Made by a program: the position numbers and the translations under genes. From Alcanivorax sp. DG881 (GTDB lineage: Bacteria > Pseudomonadota > Gammaproteobacteria > Pseudomonadales > Alcanivoracaceae): DNA of 43,111 nucleotides. The stretch is from contig NZ_DS989915.1 of assembly GCF_000155615.1 (NCBI RefSeq), positions 3,613,796 through 3,656,906 on the forward strand, in the 5' to 3' direction. The notes under the pieces are model-generated. The model did not search any database. It worked only from the letters and a program-made list of their open reading frames with translations, and was not told the DNA's origin. Position 1 is the stretch's first letter, and the number at the start of each line of letters is the position of its first letter. Positions 22,668 to 34,870 of the stretch are shown piece after piece.

Positions 22668-25451
22668 CGCCACGTTATTTTCTCTTTCTGCTGCTTGATT
22701 GCTGTTGCCGCCAGCGCGGTAGAGAGCGGGACTGATTCCAAAACGGCGGCTTTTTATTACGGCCCGGATATTCCATGGCCTTCATTGGCCGCGTATGACT
22801 TTCCTGTGGTGGAGCCGGACCAGGCCGACAGCGTGCCGCAGGCGTATCGGGACGATGACTTCTATGCCTACGTGAGCCTGGGTGAGGTGCTGGCCCAACG
22901 GCATTATTTTGCCGGGCTGGACAAGGCCTGGTTGCTGGGAGAGAACCCGGACTGGGGCTCGTTCATTCTTGATCAATCTTCTCCGGCGCTACGCCGTTAT
23001 TTTATCGATGCGGTGATCGAGCCGCTCTGGGCCCAAGGCTACCGTGGCTTTTTCCTCGATACCCTGGACAGTTACCAGCTGGTTGCCAAAGACGAGGCCG
23101 AGCGTGAACGCCAGCGGCAGGGGCTGGCAGCGCTGATTAATGCCATCGCCGAGCGCCATCCCCAGGCGGGTTTTATTTTTAACCGTGGTTTCGAACTGAT
23201 GCCGCTGGTGCAGGCCCGGGTGGATGCGGTGGCGGCCGAGTCCCTCTACCAGCGGTGGTTGCCGGACAAGGATCAGTTTACTGCTGTCCCGGAGGAAGAC
23301 AGGGCCTGGCTGCTGGGCCAGTTTGAACAGGTCCGTGAGCGTTATGGCGTCAGCACTATCGCCATTGATTATGCGCCTCCTGCGTCCCGTGACCAGGCGC
23401 GCAAGATCGCCAGCGACATTGCCCAACACAACGTCATCCCCTGGGTCACTAACCCGGCGCTGGACATGATGGGCGTGGGGGAGCTGGAAATCCTGCCCCG
23501 CCAGGTGCTGCTGGTGTACGGCGGCAGCTCGGAGCGCACCTGGGAGTTGACCGATGCGGTGCGCTACGGGCTGATGCCCCTGCAGTTTCAGGGCTTGGTG
23601 CCGGATATTCGTGCGGTGGATGCGCCCATGCCGGCGGGCACACTGGCCGGCCGCTACGCGGGCATTGTTATCTGGCTGGAAGATTCGGAAGTCGCCAGTG
23701 ATGGCTTTGAAGACTGGCTGGCGCAACAGAAAGAGGCCGGTGTGCCCATCCTTATGCTGGGGTATCCTGCCATTGACCCGCAGGGCCCCCATGCTCGGGA
23801 CTTCGGTTTTGAGTCGCGCAACACACCGGCAAGTCCGCCACAGATTGTCTCTCAGCACCCGGACATGGGCTTTGAGATTCCGTTGCCGAAACTGCTGGAG
23901 CTGTCTGCGCCGGTGGACAACGACAACGCCACTCCCTGGTTAAAATTACGCAGCGAGAACCAGACGTTTACCCCCGCAGCGACAACCCCCTGGGGCGGTT
24001 ACGCCTTCCAGCCCTTTCTGATTCGTTCCATTTTGCCCGGCGTGCAAGGCGACGGCATGGATCGCTGGGTGTTGAACCCGCTCAGTTTTACCCGCGAAGC
24101 CCTGCAATTGCCCGACATGCCTATTCCGGACGTGACCACCGAAAACGGGCGGCGACTGTTGTTTGCGCACATGGACGGCGATGGTTTCCCCAGCCTGGCA
24201 GAAGTGGAAGGGTACCGCGGGCGGGCGGATGCCCTGGTGCTGCTGGATGAAATTCTCGAGAAATTTGATATTCCCACCACCATCTCCGTGATTGAAGGGG
24301 AAGTGTCCAGCGATGGGCTGTACCCCAAAATGGCCCCCGAACTGCAGCGTATTGCCCGTGCCGTGTTTGCCCTGCCCCATGTGGAAGCGGCAACGCACAC
24401 TTACTCGCATCCCTTTTTCTGGTACGACGCCCAGGCAAACCCCGGGGAGCTGTACGGGCCGGAAGGGCAGCTGCGGCTACCGCTGCCGGACTACCGCATG
24501 GACCCGGTGCGCGAAGTGGTGGGCTCGGCCAATTATATCGAGCGCGAGCTGTTACCTCCCGGCAAGAAGACCCGCATGGTGCTGTGGAGCGGTGACACCA
24601 TTCCCACACCGGAAGCGCTGAAAGCGGCCCGTGAAGGTGGGCTGTTGAACATGAACGGCAGCGACACGACCATTACCAACAGCGCGCCCACCTGGACACT
24701 GGTGAAGGGCATTGGTATCCCGAAAGGGGATGAGTATCAGGTCTACGCGCCCAACCAGAACGAAAATATTTATACCAATAACTGGACCGGGCCTTTCTAC
24801 GGCTTTGAGCGGGTTATTGAAACCTTCAAACTGACCGAAACGCCTCATCGCTTCAAGCCGGTGGATATTTACTACCACACCTATATTGCCAGCAAGAATG
24901 CGTCACTGGAGTCCCTGCGGCGGGTGTACCAATGGGCCAGCGATCAGCCGTATTTTCCGCTGTTCGCATCGGACTACAGCCGCAAAGTGCTGGATTTCAA
25001 CGACATGGTGATCGGCCGCCGGGGCGATCAATGGTGGATTCAGGGCAACGGCCAGCTACGTACGTTACGATTGCCGGACGGGCTGGCGCTTCCCGCCTTG
25101 GCACAAAGCAGTGGTGTGGCCGGCTACCGCGAGGACAAGCCCGGACGTTATGTGCATTTGAGCGGTGAGCAGGCACATTGGCGAGGCCAGGCATCCAGCG
25201 AGAACGGCAGCCGGGTGCCGTATTTGCAGCAGGCGAATGGCCGGCTGACGACTTTTTCCCGCGACGGGCGAAACCTGCGCTTCTCTCTGGAAGCCATGAC
25301 GTCGCTGGCGTTTTCCCTGGGCAATGCCCGGGGCTGCACGTTGTCTCATCAGGGAAAAACACTGAAACCTGCCGGCAGGGAAGGCCGGCTCTACCACTAC
25401 AGGAGTGCGGCGCGTGAGCTCAATGAGCTACGGCTACAATGTCCGCACTGA
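22665..25451 (+). CDS. pelA: PelA, periplasmic Pel deacetylase/hydrolase
   Basis: PelA partly deacetylates the Pel polysaccharide and can hydrolyse it. The 928-residue product (P. aeruginosa: 948) has a signal peptide (about 1-18). A glycoside hydrolase domain follows, with the acidic residues of FLDTLDSY (D132/D135) and E192 in AAESLYQRW. After a Rossmann-like linker comes a deacetylase domain with metal ligands in HMDGDGF (D504, D506) and THTYSHPF (H578, H582), then a C-terminal beta-rich region. The spacing of these residues matches the P. aeruginosa enzyme. The end overlaps pelB1 by 38 bases. The unusual AUU start is described separately. Confidence 0.93.
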   Translation: MRHVIFSFCCLIAVAASAVESGTDSKTAAFYYGPDIPWPSLAAYDFPVVEPDQADSVPQAYRDDDFYAYVSLGEVLAQRHYFAGLDKAWLLGENPDWGSFILDQSSPALRRYFIDAVIEPLWAQGYRGFFLDTLDSYQLVAKDEAERERQRQGLAALINAIAERHPQAGFIFNRGFELMPLVQARVDAVAAESLYQRWLPDKDQFTAVPEEDRAWLLGQFEQVRERYGVSTIAIDYAPPASRDQARKIASDIAQHNVIPWVTNPALDMMGVGELEILPRQVLLVYGGSSERTWELTDAVRYGLMPLQFQGLVPDIRAVDAPMPAGTLAGRYAGIVIWLEDSEVASDGFEDWLAQQKEAGVPILMLGYPAIDPQGPHARDFGFESRNTPASPPQIVSQHPDMGFEIPLPKLLELSAPVDNDNATPWLKLRSENQTFTPAATTPWGGYAFQPFLIRSILPGVQGDGMDRWVLNPLSFTREALQLPDMPIPDVTTENGRRLLFAHMDGDGFPSLAEVEGYRGRADALVLLDEILEKFDIPTTISVIEGEVSSDGLYPKMAPELQRIARAVFALPHVEAATHTYSHPFFWYDAQANPGELYGPEGQLRLPLPDYRMDPVREVVGSANYIERELLPPGKKTRMVLWSGDTIPTPEALKAAREGGLLNMNGSDTTITNSAPTWTLVKGIGIPKGDEYQVYAPNQNENIYTNNWTGPFYGFERVIETFKLTETPHRFKPVDIYYHTYIASKNASLESLRRVYQWASDQPYFPLFASDYSRKVLDFNDMVIGRRGDQWWIQGNGQLRTLRLPDGLALPALAQSSGVAGYREDKPGRYVHLSGEQAHWRGQASSENGSRVPYLQQANGRLTTFSRDGRNLRFSLEAMTSLAFSLGNARGCTLSHQGKTLKPAGREGRLYHYRSAARELNELRLQCPH

Positions 25452-26292
25452 ACGGCTGCGGGTTCTTGGTCTACCGGAATTATTTGCCTTTCTGATTCTT
25501 ATCGGGGTGGTGTGCTGGATGGTGTTCCCGCGGGACCTGTCTTCGTCCCTGCGTAGTGCGCGGCTGGACGCGGTGACGTTCAGCTATATGCAAGCCTGGC
25601 TGAAAGCCAAGCCGGATGACCACGAATTGCGCCTGTTGATGGCCCGGGAATTGATTCTGCAAGGTGATTTCGTGGCGGCGGATGAGCAGCTGCAAGTCGT
25701 GACCGCGGACAGTAATGGGCGCTATGACACCCAGATTGCCTGGCTGGAACTGCGCCGGGATTTTACCCGTTTGATGGCCATAGACGCCGACAACCGTCGT
25801 GGCACCATGCTTGAGCATGAAACCCTGACCCGTTTGCGCGCGATTGACTGGGCGGCCCTGAACAGTGAAAAACGCATTCGTTTCGCCGAGATGGCCCTGG
25901 CCATGGGCAGCGTGGACCTGGCGGTGCAGGCCTACCGCCGGTTGGCTGACAGCGCGGCCAACCCCAGCCAGTGGTACGTCAAGGCGGCGAAAGTACTGCT
26001 TGCCCACGGGCGCTATTCCGAGTCTGCGGATGCCTACATTGCAGCCATGGATGCGCGTGGCAATTACACGGTGCGTAAACGCTATTTCCTCGCCGCACTC
26101 AGCGCACTGCAGTCGGGTAGCCTGCATGACAAGGCGCTGCGCCTGGCTCAGGCGCGGGAGCGTGCTTTTTATAACGACAAGGCGGTGTTGTATCGCTTGA
26201 TGACCCTAGCCCAGGCCGGCGGCAACATGCCCCTGGCCGAGCACTATGCGGTGTTGTTACTGGGTCTGCCGTCCGAGGAGGGCAGCCGATGA
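25414..26292 (+). CDS. pelB: PelB N-terminal half: membrane-anchored TPR protein
   Basis: The 292-residue product has one membrane helix at about residues 18-36 (LFAFLILIGVVCWMVF). Helical repeats of the TPR type follow, for example WYVKAAKVLLAHGRYSESADAYIAA. This corresponds to the start of P. aeruginosa PelB, whose single 1193-residue chain has an inner-membrane anchor, many TPRs and an outer-membrane barrel. The GTG start at 25414 is 8 bases after AGGAG; ATG at 25423 is an alternative. It ends in an ATGA overlap with the second half. Its frame closes cleanly and the next gene has its own signal peptide, so this is a split gene rather than a frameshift. Confidence 0.8.
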   Translation: MSSMSYGYNVRTERLRVLGLPELFAFLILIGVVCWMVFPRDLSSSLRSARLDAVTFSYMQAWLKAKPDDHELRLLMARELILQGDFVAADEQLQVVTADSNGRYDTQIAWLELRRDFTRLMAIDADNRRGTMLEHETLTRLRAIDWAALNSEKRIRFAEMALAMGSVDLAVQAYRRLADSAANPSQWYVKAAKVLLAHGRYSESADAYIAAMDARGNYTVRKRYFLAALSALQSGSLHDKALRLAQARERAFYNDKAVLYRLMTLAQAGGNMPLAEHYAVLLLGLPSEEGSR

Positions 26293-29081
26293 CCCGCCGC
26301 CCGCTGATACGACGATGGCTCCATGCGGCCATTTTCCCCTTGGCGCTGTCTACCGTACCGCTTGCCCATGCGGACACGCCGGCGCCTTATGTGGAGCGCT
26401 ACTACGACCGCAGCTACCAGGTGTTCGTGGGGTCGGGGAACCTGGTTCGGGCCCGGCAGGTGGCTGAGAATGCGCTTTACTGGCGCCCGGATGATGAACG
26501 CTGGTGGCGCCGGCTGGCGGAGATATCCCGTTGGCAGGGGGATCCGGAAACCTCACTGAAAGCCTGGCGGCAGGTGGCCTTGCGCAGTAATGATCCGGAG
26601 GCCTGGAAGCAGGTGCTGGTGTTGGCACCGCTGACTTACAGCAACCGCCTCGCGCTGCGGGCCAACAAGGCGCTGTTAAGCGCCTCTCCCTACGATGCCG
26701 ACATCATTGCCACCATCAGTCAGCAGTATGAGCTGCTGGGGCAACCGGATGAGGGCCTGCGTTTCTTCGCAGACTGGCGTCGGCGTTACCCCAGTAAAGC
26801 GGCATTACGGGAAATGCAGCGGCTCGCCTTGAATCAGGGTGAGGATGTCTTGGCTGCGCGCTATTCACGGGAATATATGGACCGCTTTGGCCCGGAAGAG
26901 GCCATGGCTGCCCAGGCGGCAGACTTGTTCTGGCTTAATGGTCAGCGCGAAAAAGCCCTGCAGGACCTGGACCGTGACGCCAGTGATTTAGCCTATTCGC
27001 CGGCACTGTCCCGGCGTATTGCGGTGATGGCCGGAGAGTTGGGCGAGTGGGATCTGGCGCTGGATCGTTACCAGCAATTGGTGGATAACGACGACGACCA
27101 GATTACCGATTTGTACCATTACATCACGCTGGCCCGTTATTACCGCCCGGATCGTGTGGCATCACTGATGGATCGGGCCTGGCAGAAGAACCGCAATCCG
27201 CAATTTGCCCTGGGGGCGCTCTATCAGCTGAACGATCGCCGTGATGATGAGGCCATTGATGCTTTCCTGTCAGGGTTGAGTGAAGAGCAGTGGCAAACAC
27301 TGATACAGACTCCGGAATTTCTGCGCTTCTATGCCAATCTGCAATTGCGTCGCGGGGACCCGCAAGCCGCGCAGCGCTGGTTGCAGAAAGCACTGGCCCT
27401 GAATCCGGCTGACCGGGAAACCCGGGTCAGCTGGATGTGGCTGCTGATTGCCACCGGCCAGGACCGGGAGCTTCGCCAGGCCCTGGTCACCTGGGAAGGC
27501 GCGGCCCGAAGTGATCGGCGCTACTGGGAGGTGCTGTCGGCGTCACACATGGCATTGGGCAATGCGGAACAGGCCCTGCGCTATGAAACCGAATTACTGA
27601 AAACCGCACGCCAGAACTGGGAGCGCCAGTGGTATTACGCCCAGGCGTTGATTGCCACCGGTCGAAACGGGCAGGCCTGGCCGGTGCTGCGGCACCTCAA
27701 GGAACAATTGCCCTTGACGGTCGAGCCGCAAAAGCAGGCCATTTACCGGGATATGCAATTGACGCTGAGTCTGTTGTTTGACGATGGCGATACCTCGCTG
27801 AAGCTGGCTCGGGCGCAAACGCAAGGCATGGACAGTGATCCGGTGGCCCGGGCCGAGTGGTTGGCGCAATGGGCGATCGGGCAGTCAGAGCCCTTGCTGG
27901 CCCAGAGTTGGTATTTGCGTAAACAGCAGGCGCAAGGGGCGCTCAAAGCCGGCTCGGCACTGGCTTTTGCACTGGTGCAGGATGATCTGGACGCGGTGGC
28001 GCAGATCCGTGAGCAGTATCAGGGCCAGCTTACCCTGTCCGAGCAGCTGGAAGCCCAGGTGCGGCTGGATGAACCGCGCCGTGCTGCCAGTACCTTTATG
28101 GCCATTCAGGCCGGGTCGCCGGAACTGGCCGGCAGCAATAACCTGCAGGAAAGCCTGCTATTGCCCACGGCCCGCTCGTCACAGTTTCATATTGAACAGC
28201 GCCGTTTGGGGGCGCTGGATATTCAGGATCTGCAGTTTGTGCAGTACCAGCCGCTCAGTGATTTCACCCAGCTGTCTGTGGAAGCCCGCCAGCGCAATTT
28301 CAGCAGCAATGATGATGAACTGCTGCAAATCAGTGATGACGAGCAGCGGCTGTCGATGGCGCTGGCTTACCAGCGCGAACGGTTCCGCAGCCGCCTGGAG
28401 CTGGGCCAGCGCAACCTGTTGGGCAACAGCGAAACCATGGCGGACCTGGAGCTGGGCGCCAACTGGACCCGGTACTGGTCCGGTAGCCTGAATTACCAAT
28501 GGCGCATGCCCGCAGATGAGTCGTCCCTGCTGATTCTCGGTGCGTCGCGCACGGGTAGCCAGTGGTTGCTGAACTGGACGCCATCCTCTACCTGGCAAAG
28601 CAGTGTGGATTGGGCCAACTATGACTATCAGGATCTCAATGATAGTGATCTGGGCAGTGGCAGCATTATCAATGCCCAGAGTACCTGGCGCCCCTGGTTG
28701 TCGCGCTTCTCTCCCGGGGTACGGGTGAGGCATACCCGGGCTGACTTTACCGCCGGTGAAGACAGCATGGCAGAAGTGCGTGCCTTGCTGCCGCCGGGTG
28801 CCCAGACGTTACCGCTGCCGCAGGACTATCACGAGTCGGAAGTGGTGCTCCTGCTGGGCCAGCCGGATGTGCATATTCGTCCGCACCGTTTGCAGGGCTG
28901 GGCAGAAATAGGTTACAGCCATAACAGTCTTTCGGGAGCGGGTTTTACCGGCCGCTTCGGTGTGGAAGGGCCGCTGATCGGCCGGGATGAATGGAAGCTG
29001 TATGCAGAACAACAGCTCAATAGTGGGGGCAGTGGTGAAGACAGCTACCGCTTCGGGCTGCAATATAGAGTTTATTACTAG
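26289..29081 (+). CDS. pelB: PelB C-terminal half: TPR and outer-membrane beta-barrel
   Basis: The 930-residue product starts with a signal peptide (RRPLIRRWLHAAIFPLALS and on to AHA, cut near residue 28). About 550 residues of TPR-like helices follow, then a C-terminal barrel of about 300 residues with alternating strands ending in FGLQYRVYY, a final aromatic typical of outer-membrane proteins. It would form the Pel export pore, with the TPR part positioning PelA. Together the two halves (292 + 930) are about the size of whole PelB. It overlaps the first half by four bases, so both are translated from one message. Confidence 0.88.
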   Translation: MTRRPLIRRWLHAAIFPLALSTVPLAHADTPAPYVERYYDRSYQVFVGSGNLVRARQVAENALYWRPDDERWWRRLAEISRWQGDPETSLKAWRQVALRSNDPEAWKQVLVLAPLTYSNRLALRANKALLSASPYDADIIATISQQYELLGQPDEGLRFFADWRRRYPSKAALREMQRLALNQGEDVLAARYSREYMDRFGPEEAMAAQAADLFWLNGQREKALQDLDRDASDLAYSPALSRRIAVMAGELGEWDLALDRYQQLVDNDDDQITDLYHYITLARYYRPDRVASLMDRAWQKNRNPQFALGALYQLNDRRDDEAIDAFLSGLSEEQWQTLIQTPEFLRFYANLQLRRGDPQAAQRWLQKALALNPADRETRVSWMWLLIATGQDRELRQALVTWEGAARSDRRYWEVLSASHMALGNAEQALRYETELLKTARQNWERQWYYAQALIATGRNGQAWPVLRHLKEQLPLTVEPQKQAIYRDMQLTLSLLFDDGDTSLKLARAQTQGMDSDPVARAEWLAQWAIGQSEPLLAQSWYLRKQQAQGALKAGSALAFALVQDDLDAVAQIREQYQGQLTLSEQLEAQVRLDEPRRAASTFMAIQAGSPELAGSNNLQESLLLPTARSSQFHIEQRRLGALDIQDLQFVQYQPLSDFTQLSVEARQRNFSSNDDELLQISDDEQRLSMALAYQRERFRSRLELGQRNLLGNSETMADLELGANWTRYWSGSLNYQWRMPADESSLLILGASRTGSQWLLNWTPSSTWQSSVDWANYDYQDLNDSDLGSGSIINAQSTWRPWLSRFSPGVRVRHTRADFTAGEDSMAEVRALLPPGAQTLPLPQDYHESEVVLLLGQPDVHIRPHRLQGWAEIGYSHNSLSGAGFTGRFGVEGPLIGRDEWKLYAEQQLNSGGSGEDSYRFGLQYRVYY

Positions 29082-29092
29082 GAGTGAATCCA

Positions 29093-29617
29093 ATGAGACT
29101 GAGCATTCCGCTACTGGGAACCTTGCTGTTAGCCACCGTGCTGGCCGGGTGTACCCATGTTCGCAGCAGCCAGGATGTGGAACTGTCCGGCGAGGGCAAC
29201 TGGCTGGTTCTGCCGATGGTTAACCGTACCGCGACGCCCCAGGCGGGCTTACGGGCGGCGTCCATTGTCGAATCCGTGCTGTACCGCCATGGCGTGAATA
29301 ACGTAACCCGCTACCCGGAAAGCGATAATGAAGGGGTGTTGTTTGAAGGCACCTCGGCGGCCAACCGCAAGAAAATGAATCAGTGGGTTGCCTCGCAATC
29401 GGCCCAGTATGTGGTGAGCGGGGTAGTGCACGAATGGCGCTATAAAACCGGCGTTGATGGTGAACCTGCGGTGGGGGTGATGATCGAAATTCGTGAGTTG
29501 CCGGCAGGCCGTATCGTCTACAGCGGTACCGGCTCACGGGCCGGCTGGGCACGCCAGTCGCTCAGTGAAACCGGGCAGAAGGTCATCGATAAATTGCTCG
29601 CCCCGGTGGTGCAGTAA
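29093..29617 (+). CDS. pelC: PelC outer-membrane lipoprotein
   Basis: PelC forms a ring at the inner leaflet of the outer membrane that guides Pel to PelB. This 174-residue protein (P. aeruginosa: 172) has a lipoprotein signal with lipobox LAGC near residue 20. The residues after the cysteine are Thr and His, which does not block sorting to the outer membrane. The start was set at ATG 29093 because TAGGAG (29079-29084) is 8 bases before it; GTG at 29084 overlaps that site. The stop overlaps pelD in TAATG. Confidence 0.9.
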   Translation: MRLSIPLLGTLLLATVLAGCTHVRSSQDVELSGEGNWLVLPMVNRTATPQAGLRAASIVESVLYRHGVNNVTRYPESDNEGVLFEGTSAANRKKMNQWVASQSAQYVVSGVVHEWRYKTGVDGEPAVGVMIEIRELPAGRIVYSGTGSRAGWARQSLSETGQKVIDKLLAPVVQ

Positions 29618-30951
29618 TGCTTGAGCGCATCAGCAACGGCAAACTGGCGGGGCTGTTCATGCCCGAGCCAAGAGTGCTGTGGTCGCTGTGCGAAGCAGTG
29701 ATTCTGATGGCGCTGGCGGTTGCCATGGGGTTGTGGCTGCGTGAGGAGGATCCGCTGACACTTATCGGGACCTTCCGTTGGGTGTTGCTGGTACCGATAT
29801 TGCTGGCGCTGCGTTATGGCAGTTTGCTTGGGGTATTCGGCATGCTGTGCCTGGTGGCCAGCTGGTTTGTGCTGACTGCCCTGGGCTTCTATCCAGGGAT
29901 GGAGTTTCCGGAATCCACCATGCTTGGTGGTTTCGTGATTACCCTTATCTGCGGTGAGTTTGCGGATATGTGGCGCGTCAAGCTGATGCGCGCAGACAGT
30001 GCCGCCAGCTATGCACTGGAGCGCTTGCAGAACCTGACCCAGCGGTATGTGCTGTTGCGCCTCTCCCACGACCGGTTGGAAGAAAACCTGCTGATTAAGC
30101 CGTATACCGTGCGCGATGCGCTGGTGCGGTTACGTGATCTGACCCTGGATGAAAGTGACAAGGTGCGCCTTCCGGCGGCGGATGACCTGATCCACATGTT
30201 GGCAGAATATTGCCAGCTGCAACGTGCCGCGCTTTACCGGGTGGTGGATGGCGAAATCGATGATGAGCCCGCTTCCCAACTGGGTGAAATGCGTCCACTG
30301 GAGCGCAACAACGCCTTGCTCCAGCATGCACTGGAAAACCAGCTGCTTGCCCATGTGCAGCAGCATGACCACGACAGTAATTATCATGGCCAGTATCTGG
30401 TTGTGGCCCCTATTATCAACAGCGGTGGTGCCTTGATCGGGGTGATGGTGATTGAGCGTTTGCCGTTCCTGTCCATCAATTATGAAAACCTGCAGCTGTT
30501 GTCTGTGCTGCTTAACTTCTATGCCGATATCGTGCATGCCGGCGATGAAGTCGATGACATGCTGGATCGCTGGCCCACCATGCCGTTCCGGATTGCCAGT
30601 GAGTTGGCCGCGCTGGTGCGCCTGCGCGAGGGTGGCCGGGTGGATACCTCCCTCACCTTGTTTGTCGCTGACGAGAGCGAGCAGGCTGGATTGATTCTTG
30701 ATGACCTGGCCCGCGGCCTGCGCAGCCTGGATCTTGCCTGGTGGGTAAATGACAGCGTCTTGATGATCATGATGCCGATGACCGGGGAATCCAGTCTGGA
30801 AGGCTTTGTGTTACGTACCGAGAAATGGCTGGCCGATGAGTATGCCTTTATGAGCCTGCGTCAGGCCGGGGTGCAGTTCTATTACCGTCACCTGGATCAG
30901 CGTGAGGCAATGGAGCAGGTGGCCGAGCTACTGGAGGCGGCGGGTGTCTAG
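29617..30951 (+). CDS. pelD: PelD, c-di-GMP receptor of the Pel synthase
   Basis: PelD switches on Pel synthesis when it binds c-di-GMP. The 444-residue protein (P. aeruginosa: 455) has four membrane helices near the N-terminus (about 20-115), a GAF domain (about 170-310) and a degenerate GGDEF domain. The inhibitory-site ligands are kept: R369-x-x-D372 (LRSLDLAWW) and R400 (LRTEKWL). These fall within two residues of R367, D370 and R402 in P. aeruginosa. The operon should therefore be controlled post-translationally by c-di-GMP. No diguanylate cyclase gene is in the window. Confidence 0.93.
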   Translation: MLERISNGKLAGLFMPEPRVLWSLCEAVILMALAVAMGLWLREEDPLTLIGTFRWVLLVPILLALRYGSLLGVFGMLCLVASWFVLTALGFYPGMEFPESTMLGGFVITLICGEFADMWRVKLMRADSAASYALERLQNLTQRYVLLRLSHDRLEENLLIKPYTVRDALVRLRDLTLDESDKVRLPAADDLIHMLAEYCQLQRAALYRVVDGEIDDEPASQLGEMRPLERNNALLQHALENQLLAHVQQHDHDSNYHGQYLVVAPIINSGGALIGVMVIERLPFLSINYENLQLLSVLLNFYADIVHAGDEVDDMLDRWPTMPFRIASELAALVRLREGGRVDTSLTLFVADESEQAGLILDDLARGLRSLDLAWWVNDSVLMIMMPMTGESSLEGFVLRTEKWLADEYAFMSLRQAGVQFYYRHLDQREAMEQVAELLEAAGV

Positions 30952-31954
30952 TCTCAAGCTGCTTATCTATGCGATCAGTGCGGAGATCGCTTCCCTGCTG
31001 TTGCTGTTGAGCAGACAGGCAGACCTGTCCCTGTTCGTGCTGTACCTTTTCTCTCACGGTTTGGCATCGGCATTGCTGTCAGTTGTGGCCTGGGGACTGT
31101 TGCCGGCACGTTTCAGAACGCCAAAGATTCTTTCCTGGGTGCTGATTTTTTCCTTTGCGTTTTTTATTCCGGCGGTGGGGCTGGTCACCATCCTGGGTGG
31201 GGTGGCATTGGGTATCTGGCTGCCGGCGCTGTTTCGGGACAAACCCTTCGGATTGGTGGCGCAGCCTTATTTTTCCCCGGTACAGGTCAACAGCGCGGCC
31301 GGTTTTCGGCAAATCGATCTGAAAAGCCTGCTGACCACATCAAGGGCGCCCAATGCCCTGCGGGTGCAGGGCATGTTGGTGCTCAAGGACATGCCCGCCA
31401 AGGTAACCGGCAATTTGTTACGCCATACCCTGGGGGATTCCTTTGAAGATTTGCGGCTACTGGCCTACGGGATTCTTGATCAGAAAGAAAAGGAAATTAC
31501 CCGGGATATCGAGCGCGCCCTGCACCTGTTGGAGCGGGCCAAGGAGTCACGCCGCTACCGTTTGGCCCGTCGCCTGTCCGAGCTGTATTGGGAGCTGAAT
31601 TATCAGGACCTGGTGCGCGGGGATATCCGTACCCTGACGTTGGAACGGGCAGCATTCTATGCCGACATGGGCTTGATGGAAGCGCCGGAAGACGCCGGCT
31701 TGTGGTTGCTGCGCGGGCGTATTCAGTTAAGCCAGGGGGAAATCGGTGAAGCACACCAGTCCATGACCTTCGCCCGTCGCCTGGGATTGTCCGCAGCGAA
31801 AGTGAACCCCTGGCTGGCCGAGATCGCGCTGCAACGTCGGCAAATACCGCTGGTGCGGCTGCTGATGCGTGAAATTACCGATGACAGCCAATTCACCCAA
31901 CTCAATAAATCCGTTGAATTCTGGAGGGCCCATGAGCCTGCCACGGGCGGATAG
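30944..31954 (+). CDS. pelE: PelE, inner-membrane TPR protein
   Basis: The 336-residue protein (P. aeruginosa: 329) has two or more N-terminal hydrophobic segments (about residues 3-80) and a cytosolic helical part with TPR-like pairs (GDIRTLTLERAAFYADMGL, AGLWLLRGRIQLSQGEIGEA). PelE bridges PelD and PelF and stimulates polymerisation. The start is GTG at 30944, which has GGAGG 6 bases before it and overlaps the pelD stop. An upstream open frame to 30902 lies within pelD. The end overlaps pelF by 23 bases. Confidence 0.9.
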   Translation: MSSLKLLIYAISAEIASLLLLLSRQADLSLFVLYLFSHGLASALLSVVAWGLLPARFRTPKILSWVLIFSFAFFIPAVGLVTILGGVALGIWLPALFRDKPFGLVAQPYFSPVQVNSAAGFRQIDLKSLLTTSRAPNALRVQGMLVLKDMPAKVTGNLLRHTLGDSFEDLRLLAYGILDQKEKEITRDIERALHLLERAKESRRYRLARRLSELYWELNYQDLVRGDIRTLTLERAAFYADMGLMEAPEDAGLWLLRGRIQLSQGEIGEAHQSMTFARRLGLSAAKVNPWLAEIALQRRQIPLVRLLMREITDDSQFTQLNKSVEFWRAHEPATGG

Positions 31955-33500
31955 CGCCGATATCTGTTTATTACTGGAAGGCACTTTCCCCTATGTGAGT
32001 GGCGGCGTGTCCAGTTGGGTAAATCAGATTATTCGTGGTTTTCCCGAATATACCTTTGCCTGCTGTTTTGTGGGCAGTCGCCCGGAAGACTACGGCGACA
32101 TGAAATATGAGCTGCCGGATAACGTGGTGCATTTGGAAGTGCACTACCTGCACAATTTTCAGCGGGGGGCGCAAAAGCGTTCCCTCAAGGGCAATCGTAA
32201 GGCCTATGCCGATCTGCGGCGTTTCCATGAAATGGTGAAAGATGGCATTCATTCCCGGGAGCGTAGCGAGCTGTTCAGTCGCATTGTCACGCACCTGGGG
32301 GAAGGCGAGGATTATTCCGAGGAATCTTTCCTGCACAGCCGGGCCAGCTGGGATTACATTGCTGAATCGTACCGCGAGTTCAGCCGTGACCCGTCCTTTG
32401 TGGATTATTTCTGGACCATCCGCATCATGCATTCGCCCATCTGGGTGCTTAACGATATTGCCGACAACTTGTTGCCGGCAAAGATGTACCACACCATTTC
32501 TACCGGTTATGCGGGCTTTCTTGGTGCCATGCTCAAACGCCGCACCGGCAAGCCGTTGCTGCTGTCCGAGCATGGTATTTATACCAAGGAGCGCAAGATC
32601 GACCTGTTCCAGAGCGAATGGATCAGCGATAACCGCGGCCTGGTAGAAAAGAACAATGCGGAGATGGCCTATTTTCGCGAAAAATGGGTGAATTTTTTCA
32701 CCGAGCTGGGGCGCGAGTGCTACCAGGCATCGGACCGCATTGTGGCGCTTTATGAGCGCAACCGTGAGCGGCAAATGGAAGATGGCGCGCCGCCAGAGCG
32801 CACCCTGAATATCCCCAATGGCATTGATCTGCCCCGCATGCAGAAAGTGCGTGCCGCCCGGGGTGACAACATTCCCCCGGTGGCTTGCCTGATTGGTCGT
32901 GTGGTGCCCATCAAGGATGTGAAAACCTTCCTGCGCGCCATGCGTACTCTGGTCAATGTATTGCCAGATGCCGAAGGCTGGATTGCCGGCCCGGAAGATG
33001 AGGACAAGGAATACGCCAAGGAGTGTCACGGTCTGGTAACCAGCCTGGGGCTGGAAAAGAATGTGAAGTTTCTGGGTTTCCAGAAAATTGATGAGCTGTT
33101 ACCGAAAGTGGGCGTGATCGTGCTCAGCTCCATCAGTGAGGCGTTACCGCTGGTGTTGCTGGAAGGCTTTGCCGCCGGGGTGCCAGCGGTTTCCACGGAT
33201 GTGGGTTCCTGCCGTCAGCTGATTGAAGGCCTGGGTGAAGCCGACCGTGCCTATGGAAAAGCGGGCGAAGTGGTGGGCATTGCCGATCCGGAAGCGCTGG
33301 GCAATGCGGTGGCCGCGCTATTGAAAGACAAGGACGCCTGGCACCAGGCGCAGCAGGCAGGCATTCGCCGGGTGGAGAACCTTTACACCCAGGAAATGAT
33401 GTTTGGCGCCTACCGTGACCTGTACCAGTCGCTGGTGGAGGACACGGACGCAGCCAGCCCGCAAGAAAGCAACAATCGTCGCCGGGAGGGACGCCACTAA
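31932..33500 (+). CDS. pelF: PelF, Pel glycosyltransferase
   Basis: PelF is a soluble GT4-family transferase that polymerises the amino-sugar chain, using UDP-GlcNAc. The 522-residue protein (P. aeruginosa: 507) has the N-terminal Rossmann domain with the glycine-rich FPYVSGGVSSWV. The C-terminal domain has the EX7E motif, E403 to E411 in SEALPLVLLEGFAAG. The start is ATG at 31932 after GGAGGG, inside the end of pelE; the longer frame to 31869 is within pelE. The last codons overlap pelG by one base (TAATG). Confidence 0.95.
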   Translation: MSLPRADSADICLLLEGTFPYVSGGVSSWVNQIIRGFPEYTFACCFVGSRPEDYGDMKYELPDNVVHLEVHYLHNFQRGAQKRSLKGNRKAYADLRRFHEMVKDGIHSRERSELFSRIVTHLGEGEDYSEESFLHSRASWDYIAESYREFSRDPSFVDYFWTIRIMHSPIWVLNDIADNLLPAKMYHTISTGYAGFLGAMLKRRTGKPLLLSEHGIYTKERKIDLFQSEWISDNRGLVEKNNAEMAYFREKWVNFFTELGRECYQASDRIVALYERNRERQMEDGAPPERTLNIPNGIDLPRMQKVRAARGDNIPPVACLIGRVVPIKDVKTFLRAMRTLVNVLPDAEGWIAGPEDEDKEYAKECHGLVTSLGLEKNVKFLGFQKIDELLPKVGVIVLSSISEALPLVLLEGFAAGVPAVSTDVGSCRQLIEGLGEADRAYGKAGEVVGIADPEALGNAVAALLKDKDAWHQAQQAGIRRVENLYTQEMMFGAYRDLYQSLVEDTDAASPQESNNRRREGRH

Positions 33501-34870
33501 TGGCCGGCATTGGTTTTGAACTGCGTCGATTGCTGCGCAAGGACACCCTGCTTGGCCTGATACGGGCCTATGCCTATGCCGGTGTAATCAGCTCCGGCCC
33601 CTGGGTGTTGTCGATCATCGGTATTCTGATTATCGGTATCTTCAGTTTGGGTATGGTGGTGCCGGATGCCTCGGTGACACAGTTTCAGGTCACGGTGACC
33701 TACCTTATCGCCATCAGTCTGATCCTGACCGGCATTGTGCAGCTGGCCTTTACCCGCTTCTGCGCGGATCGCTCGTTTGAAAACCGTGAAGACCTGATTC
33801 TGCCCAATTTTGGTGGCGTTACGGTGTTGGTGACGGTTATCTCCGGCGTGCTGGCGTTGCCGGCGGCCATGTTCCTGTTTCCCGGGCAGAGCGTGCTGTT
33901 CCGGGTGTTGCTGATCGCCTGTTTTGTGGTGCTGAGCAATATCTGGATTGCCACGGTCTTTCTGTCAGGTATGAAGCAGTACAAGGCCATTCTGTTGCTC
34001 TATGCCCTGGGCTACACCATTACGGTGGTGGGTGCCCTGATGCTGCGGTTTCTGGACCTGGATGGCCTGCTGCTGGGGTTTCTGCTGGGGCAGGTGACCC
34101 TGCTGGCGGGGATGCTGGTACTGATTGTGCGAGGCTACCCGGCGGAGAGCATCGTCTCGTTCGACATGTTCGGCAAAAAATACCTGTACCCCAGCCTGAT
34201 GTTGGTGGGCTTTTTCTATAATGCCGGGGTGTGGGCGGACAAGGCCATGTTCTGGTTTTACGACGGCACCGGTAGCGATGTGATCGGGCCGCTGCGGGCC
34301 TCGTTGATCTATGACATTCCGGTATTCCTGTCCTATCTGTCACTGATCCCGGGCATGGCCGTGTTTCTGGTGCGTATGGAAACGGACTTCGTGGAGTATT
34401 ATTCCAACTTTTATGACGCGGTCCGTGAAGGTGGATCGTTGTCCTATATCGAAGACATGCGCAACCAGATGGTGTTCGTCATTCGCCAGGGCATCTTTCA
34501 GATTCTCAAGATTCAGGCGATCTCGGCGCTGGTGATCATGGTGGCCGGCGCGCAGATCTTTAACGCTTTGGGCATTTCGGAGCTGTACTTGCCGCTGCTC
34601 AAGGTGCAGCTAATCGCCACCGCGTTGCAGGTGGTCTTCCTGGCCATCATCAACGTGTTCTGTTATCTGGATCAGCGCCGCATGCTGGTGTTGCTGACCG
34701 GGTTATTCTTTGTGCTCAACGTGATCTTTACCGGCATAAGCCTGTACCTGGGGCCCCAGTTCTTTGGCTTCGGTTTCCTGCTGGCGTTGGCCGTGTGTGT
34801 GCTGCTTGGCCTGTGGCTGGTGAGTCGCAAAATGGCAGAACTGGAATATTCCACCTTTATGCTTAATTGA
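33500..34870 (+). CDS. pelG: PelG, Pel synthase membrane subunit
   Basis: This 456-residue integral membrane protein is the same length as P. aeruginosa PelG. It has about twelve helices and belongs to the polysaccharide flippase-like superfamily. The start MAGIGFELRRLLRKDTL is strongly characteristic of PelG. It is thought to carry Pel across the inner membrane with PelD, PelE and PelF. It is the last gene of the operon. The only terminator seen downstream is oriented for the opposite strand. Confidence 0.95.
   Translation: MAGIGFELRRLLRKDTLLGLIRAYAYAGVISSGPWVLSIIGILIIGIFSLGMVVPDASVTQFQVTVTYLIAISLILTGIVQLAFTRFCADRSFENREDLILPNFGGVTVLVTVISGVLALPAAMFLFPGQSVLFRVLLIACFVVLSNIWIATVFLSGMKQYKAILLLYALGYTITVVGALMLRFLDLDGLLLGFLLGQVTLLAGMLVLIVRGYPAESIVSFDMFGKKYLYPSLMLVGFFYNAGVWADKAMFWFYDGTGSDVIGPLRASLIYDIPVFLSYLSLIPGMAVFLVRMETDFVEYYSNFYDAVREGGSLSYIEDMRNQMVFVIRQGIFQILKIQAISALVIMVAGAQIFNALGISELYLPLLKVQLIATALQVVFLAIINVFCYLDQRRMLVLLTGLFFVLNVIFTGISLYLGPQFFGFGFLLALAVCVLLGLWLVSRKMAELEYSTFMLN

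Follow-up and report, generated by a model that had tools for sequence, protein, structure and literature searches.

In Alcanivorax, a marine oil degrader, PelB is probably made (we put this at about 0.75) as two translationally coupled proteins that represent separable PelB modules and are both encoded in the pel operon. PelB has been regarded as a single chain along which the slime sugar passes between the two membranes, inner to outer. Sequence assigns to the first gene (ORF A, PelB-N) the N-terminal module, a predicted inner-membrane helix followed by TPRs, and to the second (ORF B, PelB-C) the C-terminal module, TPRs followed by a predicted 16-strand barrel.

The pel operon and its two pelB genes

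The window, by which we mean the whole 43,111-base stretch of Alcanivorax DNA that was analysed, holds a pel operon (pelA, two pelB genes, pelC, pelD, pelE, pelF and pelG), and adjacent genes overlap or sit 2 bases apart. Both pelB ORFs lie in this operon beside pelA, pelD, pelF and pelG; the 3′-end of pelA runs to 25451, the last base of its stop codon, and shares 38 bases with ORF A. The features, with positions in the window, are as follows:

22695..25451, + strand: pelA, 918 aa as a mechanical ORF (Pfam Glyco_hydro_114, 56.1 bits, cut-off 27)
25401..25405, + strand: AGGAG, likely ribosome-binding site of ORF A, read in the sequence
25414..26292, + strand: ORF A (PelB-N), predicted inner-membrane-anchored TPR module, 292 aa from GTG
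25471..25524, + strand: the one hydrophobic helix in ORF A, residues 17-34 when numbering begins at ATG 25423 (AlphaFold2 model, hydropathy)
25570..26262, + strand: TPR region of ORF A, helical in the model from residue 50 to 280
26275..26282, + strand: GAGGAGGG, likely ribosome-binding site of ORF B, lying within ORF A, read in the sequence
26289..26292, + strand: ATGA, in which the ORF A stop and the ORF B start overlap, read in the sequence
26289..29081, + strand: ORF B (PelB-C), predicted secreted TPR and outer-membrane barrel module, 930 aa
26289..26372, + strand: residues 1-28 of ORF B, a putative signal peptide, cleavable at LAHA/DTP (between LAHA and DTP)
26394..28169, + strand: helices in ORF B residues 36-627, TPRs among them (model; TPR_15, 131.4 bits)
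26529..26843, + strand: stretch of ORF B, about residues 81-185, aligning with P. aeruginosa PelB 332-436 (pairwise alignment, E 8.2e-10)
28167..29075, + strand: beta barrel at the C-terminus of ORF B, modelled with 16 strands (PF24604, 189 bits, cut-off 31)
29084..29617, + strand: pelC, 177 aa, named from position and size, with a lipobox LAGC read in the sequence; the profile search gave no family match
29617..30951, + strand: pelD, with PelD GGDEF and GAF domains
30902..31954, + strand: pelE, named from position and size, with a weak TPR match only
31869..33500, + strand: pelF from the mechanical start (NF038011, 827 bits, cut-off 100; family match from residue 31)
33500..34870, + strand: pelG (PF16933, 524.5 bits, cut-off 29)

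Three start codons can be read for ORF A, the mechanical GTG at 25405 (295 aa), a GTG at 25414 (292 aa) and, possibly, an ATG at 25423 (289 aa); we take GTG 25414 as the better start because it lies 8 bases after the AGGAG. An earlier note on this DNA had described PelB as two overlapping genes that add up to a whole PelB. Both ORFs indeed lie where it placed them, the ATGA overlap at 26289-26292 is confirmed, and the two lengths (292 + 930 = 1222 residues) come within 29 residues of the 1193 of P. aeruginosa PelB (9h80_M). That the two products are two parts of PelB is borne out by profile comparison: a profile that combines ORF A and its relatives with the N-terminal portions of fused PelB from betaproteobacteria matches residues 5-278 of P. 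aeruginosa PelB (E 3e-38), and one built in like manner for ORF B matches residues 298-1188 (E 3.9e-98).

The PelB feature of an N-terminal inner-membrane helix followed by TPRs is present on ORF A. Its AlphaFold2 model (289 residues; pLDDT 90.2, pTM 0.78) shows an isolated helix at residues 17-34 and then TPR helices to residue 280, while Pfam yields weak TPR matches only and Foldseek general TPR proteins only (best E 6e-5). ORF B carries both a PelB-type C-terminal barrel and a periplasmic TPR scaffold ahead of it; in its model (pLDDT 89.9, pTM 0.65) residues 1-31 are disordered, helices span residues 36-627 and 16 strands follow. The top Foldseek match of ORF B is PelB itself (9h80_M, E 2.6e-15), and the cellulose exporter BcsC (9b8a) stands at rank 4, amid many unrelated TPR proteins. 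The single polypeptide seen in P. aeruginosa is absent here, and we do not treat a single chain as defining for PelB because pelB fission is already in print (see below).

The history of the operon may be unusual, as suggested by an Alcanivorax PelF that shares 60-66% identity with betaproteobacterial PelF versus 50% with a row from its own order (L139). The best PelF matches that carry a name, at 97% and below, belong to Alcanivorax.

Conservation and targeting of the two products

Of 46 genomes examined in the family, 23 have a match to ORF B, and these hold 25 near-complete copies with open frames of 923-1017 aa. The split is conserved in the family, which the earlier note had thought worth checking: ORF B is a separate ORF in all 25 copies, and 24 of them have ORF A directly upstream, the sole exception being a second copy (L027) in genome G004. 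The result that would have spoken against the note, a single ORF in related genomes, appears in none of these 25 copies in 23 genomes; single-ORF pelB genes such as P. aeruginosa leads one to expect are present farther out, beyond the family. In addition to its intact operon, genome G004 has, at L170 (contig 1, 38000-57000), a diverged pel cluster in which a pelB match contains stop codons, and a further pelB-C copy that lacks both ORF A and a signal peptide.

In 41 of the 47 loci where both starts could be placed, the stop of ORF A and the start of ORF B share 4 bases, and in five they share 1 base (some organisms are counted twice, from two collections, and five other loci were not placeable); the remaining locus, L110 of genome G678, is misplaced owing to a frame break. 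Against the closest relative (L004), ORF A has a dN/dS of 0.064, ORF B one of 0.084 and the signal-peptide stretch one of 0.22, and against four more distant relatives it is 0.09-0.29 for ORF A and 0.09-0.24 for ORF B, rough values with dS >1. Judged by these ratios, both ORF A and ORF B are under purifying selection. Because both frames are kept in relatives, the two-gene layout is not due to chance, and the presence of a separate ORF B in 25 copies from 23 family genomes, together with purifying selection, argues that it is not a sequencing error.

The probability that the layout stems from an indel introduced in sequencing or assembly, or from a pelB that broke recently, is close to negligible: real breaks do exist, as in Cupriavidus basilensis OR16 (L188) and in G678, where ORF B shifts frame past the junction, but the same two-gene layout recurs in 24 of the 25 family copies with a start codon at the ORF A stop, the new hydrophobic N-terminus of ORF B is not homologous to fused PelB, and purifying selection is seen on both genes. 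On the strength of this conserved layout and constraint we reject an indel or a pseudogene. It is also very improbable that ribosomes shift frame at the ATGA in a programmed manner and so produce full-length PelB in addition. The overlap and the out-of-frame layout would permit such a shift, yet the overlap bases vary among relatives (ATGA, GTGA, TTGA, TAATG), positions 26270-26292 show no slippery run by eye, and the joined product would have a signal peptide in mid-chain; a programmed frameshift was rejected since its context is not conserved among relatives.

The two coupled proteins appear to be targeted differently. ORF A has one strongly hydrophobic helix, by our reading an uncleaved anchor, whereas in ORF B a short hydrophobic stretch leads up to an A-x-A site, which in many relatives lies a few residues ahead of the first TPR. 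A first home-made signal-peptide rule failed its control, with 100 of 128 anchored N-termini positive. Under the stricter rule that took its place, 50 of 54 ORF-B rows and 6 of 48 ORF-A-type rows score as having a signal peptide, counts in which species are repeated and the best of several starts was taken, which flatters ORF B. As 33 of 80 fused N-termini and 167 of 1366 internal pseudo-starts also score positive, the stricter rule is supportive and no proof. A 19-residue hydropathy of at least 1.8, typical of a membrane helix, is reached by all 48 ORF-A-type rows versus 14 of the 54 ORF-B rows, and the maximum for ORF B of the window is about 1.2.

These values bear on the alternative that the N-terminus of ORF B is itself an uncleaved anchor, so that both parts stay in the inner membrane, to which the barrel part would still be tethered. 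The rules do separate signal peptides from anchors incompletely, and 14 of 54 ORF-B rows reach 1.8; against this stand the uniform result for ORF-A-type rows, the A-x-A site just before the first TPR in many relatives and the low maximum in the window, and we consider a tethered ORF B quite improbable. It is well supported that ORF A remains in the inner membrane as a signal anchor, that ORF B reaches the periplasm through its own signal peptide and that its barrel goes to the outer membrane. The earlier note had given ORF B its own signal peptide and had held the barrel part to be no longer tethered to the inner membrane. By the home-made rules, and with model residues 1-31 lacking order, ORF B does look secreted by itself, and as far as sequence can tell its barrel would have no covalent tie to the inner membrane.

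The same junction in other lineages

The division might have been taken as peculiar to the source genome, which it is not, since the same cut is found in other lineages. Genomes were drawn from the order (390), the class (369) and the phylum (398), and a search of them with PF24604 above its cut-off, weaker hits excluded, found 39 different genomes outside the family. After removal of G074 (no PelF over the cut-off) and of G516 and G955 (contig edges), 36 loci were readable, and by hand count 28 are fused, seven are split at the junction and one is short. The seven are G772, G678, G564, G622, G646, G694 and G534, where the N-part of G694 is assigned from place, size and a hydrophobic helix only and the N-profile match of G534 is weak; in G534 the frame is open upstream by chance, and with an ORF A stop and a new start present we count it as split. 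A scan by PelF alignment, limited to the best 80 of 562 relatives, gave 54 fused loci, 17 split at the junction, one broken elsewhere (L188), three with the C part only and five without PelB in the stretch. Among these best 80, the 17 split loci comprise 13 of the Alcanivorax group and four whose titles name Acinetobacter sp. (L183), Moraxellaceae (L226), Hylemonella (L235) and Curvibacter (L241). Split genes part at about positions 281-305 of the fused profile.

Other rearrangements of pelB were met in the same material. In Cupriavidus basilensis OR16 (L188) the gene is broken at about profile position 412, and other Cupriavidus are fused. In G694 (L113/L169; 2700-6711 of reversed L113) PelB seemingly lies in three overlapping genes, for an anchored protein of 286 aa, a TPR protein of 547 aa and a barrel of 504 aa, the last two with signal-peptide-like starts; this three-gene form is found in that one genome only, and its sister G534 has two genes. 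A reduced pel locus in G1100 (L127) encodes a 634-aa PelB consisting of the last TPRs and the barrel only, and its PelA match is confined to residues 19-269 of the window PelA.

The junction is also distinctive in fused genes. Linker length was measured by local matches of two half profiles, which superseded a global hmmalign net insertion (median 2, n=61) that misplaced the linkers. In fused betaproteobacterial PelB the junction holds a linker with a median of 60 residues (n=60; range -2 to 133, one at 338), compared with -11 to +12 (n=19, one at -52) in other fused PelB, the Pseudomonas type included. A linker in the former, none in Pseudomonas-type PelB and the recurrent cut together identify the junction as a module boundary, and the measurements imply that the modules can be joined directly, through a linker or not at all. 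The linkers also speak against one rigid continuous solenoid in the betaproteobacterial group. In G080, the fused row that the tree places closest to Alcanivorax, a linker is missing (-9), which goes against a simple story of linker before split for the Alcanivorax lineage. A search of fused linkers for remnants of signal peptides found no overall excess (19 of 58 versus 16.1 expected from shuffles). The pattern is seen in seven of ten listed neighbours of the split Comamonadaceae, picked post hoc and with related rows, and the linkers of L199, L203, L204, L207, L217, L234 and L221, likewise chosen post hoc, have a hydrophobic stretch and then A-x-A, so that some fused linkers near the split Comamonadaceae look like worn signal peptides.

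A PelF tree of 67 rows, in which G534 was wrongly taken as fused, has five changes of state, and a PelF plus PelB-C tree of 65 rows with G534 as split, from which G1100 and L188 were left out and which covers part of the PelB genomes only, has four; both trees are unrooted, and changes are counted without direction, whether fission or fusion. Constraining the 21 split rows to one clade was rejected (p-AU 4e-58, from a quickly built tree in which the letter composition of many rows is uneven).

Proposed hand-over and known systems

In P. aeruginosa, PelB has an uncleaved N-terminal helix and was proposed in 2025 to bridge, perhaps, both membranes, with PelA binding at residues 332-436 (PMC12141448); PelA has likewise been placed on TPRs 9-14, and TPRs 1-9 have been proposed to guide the polymer (PMC12022489). 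In Alcanivorax the guiding part and the anchor would then correspond to ORF A, and the predicted PelA-binding equivalent and the barrel to ORF B. We suggest that ORF A may act at the inner-membrane synthase (PelD, PelE, PelF and PelG) and pass the growing polymer along its TPRs. PelA would dock close to the N-terminus of ORF B and the PelC ring would sit at the base of ORF B, which would receive the polymer, deacetylate it with PelA and export it. The hand-over at the junction would be non-covalent, either because the TPR ends meet or because the polymer is passed across a gap, and the overlapping genes may serve to keep ORF A and ORF B in step. Docking of the halves through their TPRs, which the earlier note had raised, and the altered assembly of the secretion complex that it had drawn from the split are both hypotheses. 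Provided that the operon works, a two-chain PelB would mean that one covalent periplasmic chain is unneeded for Pel export here.

Whether ORF A still takes part in export bears directly on this scheme. ORF A might have become an accessory that no longer touches ORF B, with ORF B alone exporting in the manner of PgaA and BcsC; ORF B by itself does have the PgaA/BcsC architecture plus the PelA-binding equivalent, BcsC is among its fold matches, and the pel locus of G1100 has a short PelB without the N-module. ORF A is nonetheless upstream of ORF B in 24 of the 25 family copies and equally constrained, and we regard an accessory role as unlikely. Returning to two cooperating modules, a wider reading, to which we give somewhat less than even odds, is that PelB consists of two machines, a TPR subunit of the inner-membrane synthase and an outer-membrane TPR-barrel exporter carrying PelA, which different lineages join by a continuous solenoid, by a floppy linker or by nothing covalent. 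Pel would then be handed over between membrane-bound halves, with no single bridge; on this reading several lineages would have arrived at the split independently, signal peptide and linker would replace one another at one junction, and G694 would have gone further, to three chains.

A natural two-chain PelB, conserved in the family and recurring at the same joint, offers a ready-made test of the covalent bridge (PMC12141448): should operons with split PelB make Pel, its export would require no covalent bridge. Each half can be deleted, tagged and reconstituted on its own in a harmless marine bacterium, and the junction shows where PelB might be cut into well-behaved pieces for structural work. 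Our literature search found no experiment on an Alcanivorax pel operon; for A. borkumensis SK2 a c-di-GMP-linked polysaccharide has been described, in a paper whose accessible text has Pel in a reference title only (PMC6440734).

Division of pelB as such is already in print, as a 2020 legend (Fig. 5) refers to "pelB fission ... in aquatic thermophilic species" (PMC7112194), and in a search thin on subscription papers that legend was the only place where a divided pelB was met. The two cases share a pelB in pieces within the pel operon, but the accessible text of that paper mentions neither a junction nor a signal peptide, and Alcanivorax is not named in it. Like P. aeruginosa PelB (9h80 chain M), Alcanivorax has an inner-membrane helix, TPRs, a PelA-binding stretch, a 16-strand barrel and the partners PelA, PelD, PelF and PelG; unlike it, Alcanivorax has two predicted chains, of which the second brings a signal peptide of its own, and nothing covalent connects the membranes.

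PgaA, for PNAG, and BcsC, for cellulose, consist of a signal peptide, TPRs and a 16-strand barrel (PMC12141448), an architecture that ORF B by itself shares. In contrast to those exporters, which have their own barrel family and lie in pga or bcs operons, ORF B has a barrel of the PelB family (PF24604), sits among pel genes and has a separate anchored TPR partner. In the alginate system the TPR part (AlgK) and the barrel (AlgE) are on separate chains, and AlgK is an outer-membrane lipoprotein. Unlike AlgK, ORF A is a predicted inner-membrane protein, and it is the three-gene pelB of G694 that comes closest to the AlgK and AlgE pair (named in PMC12022489).
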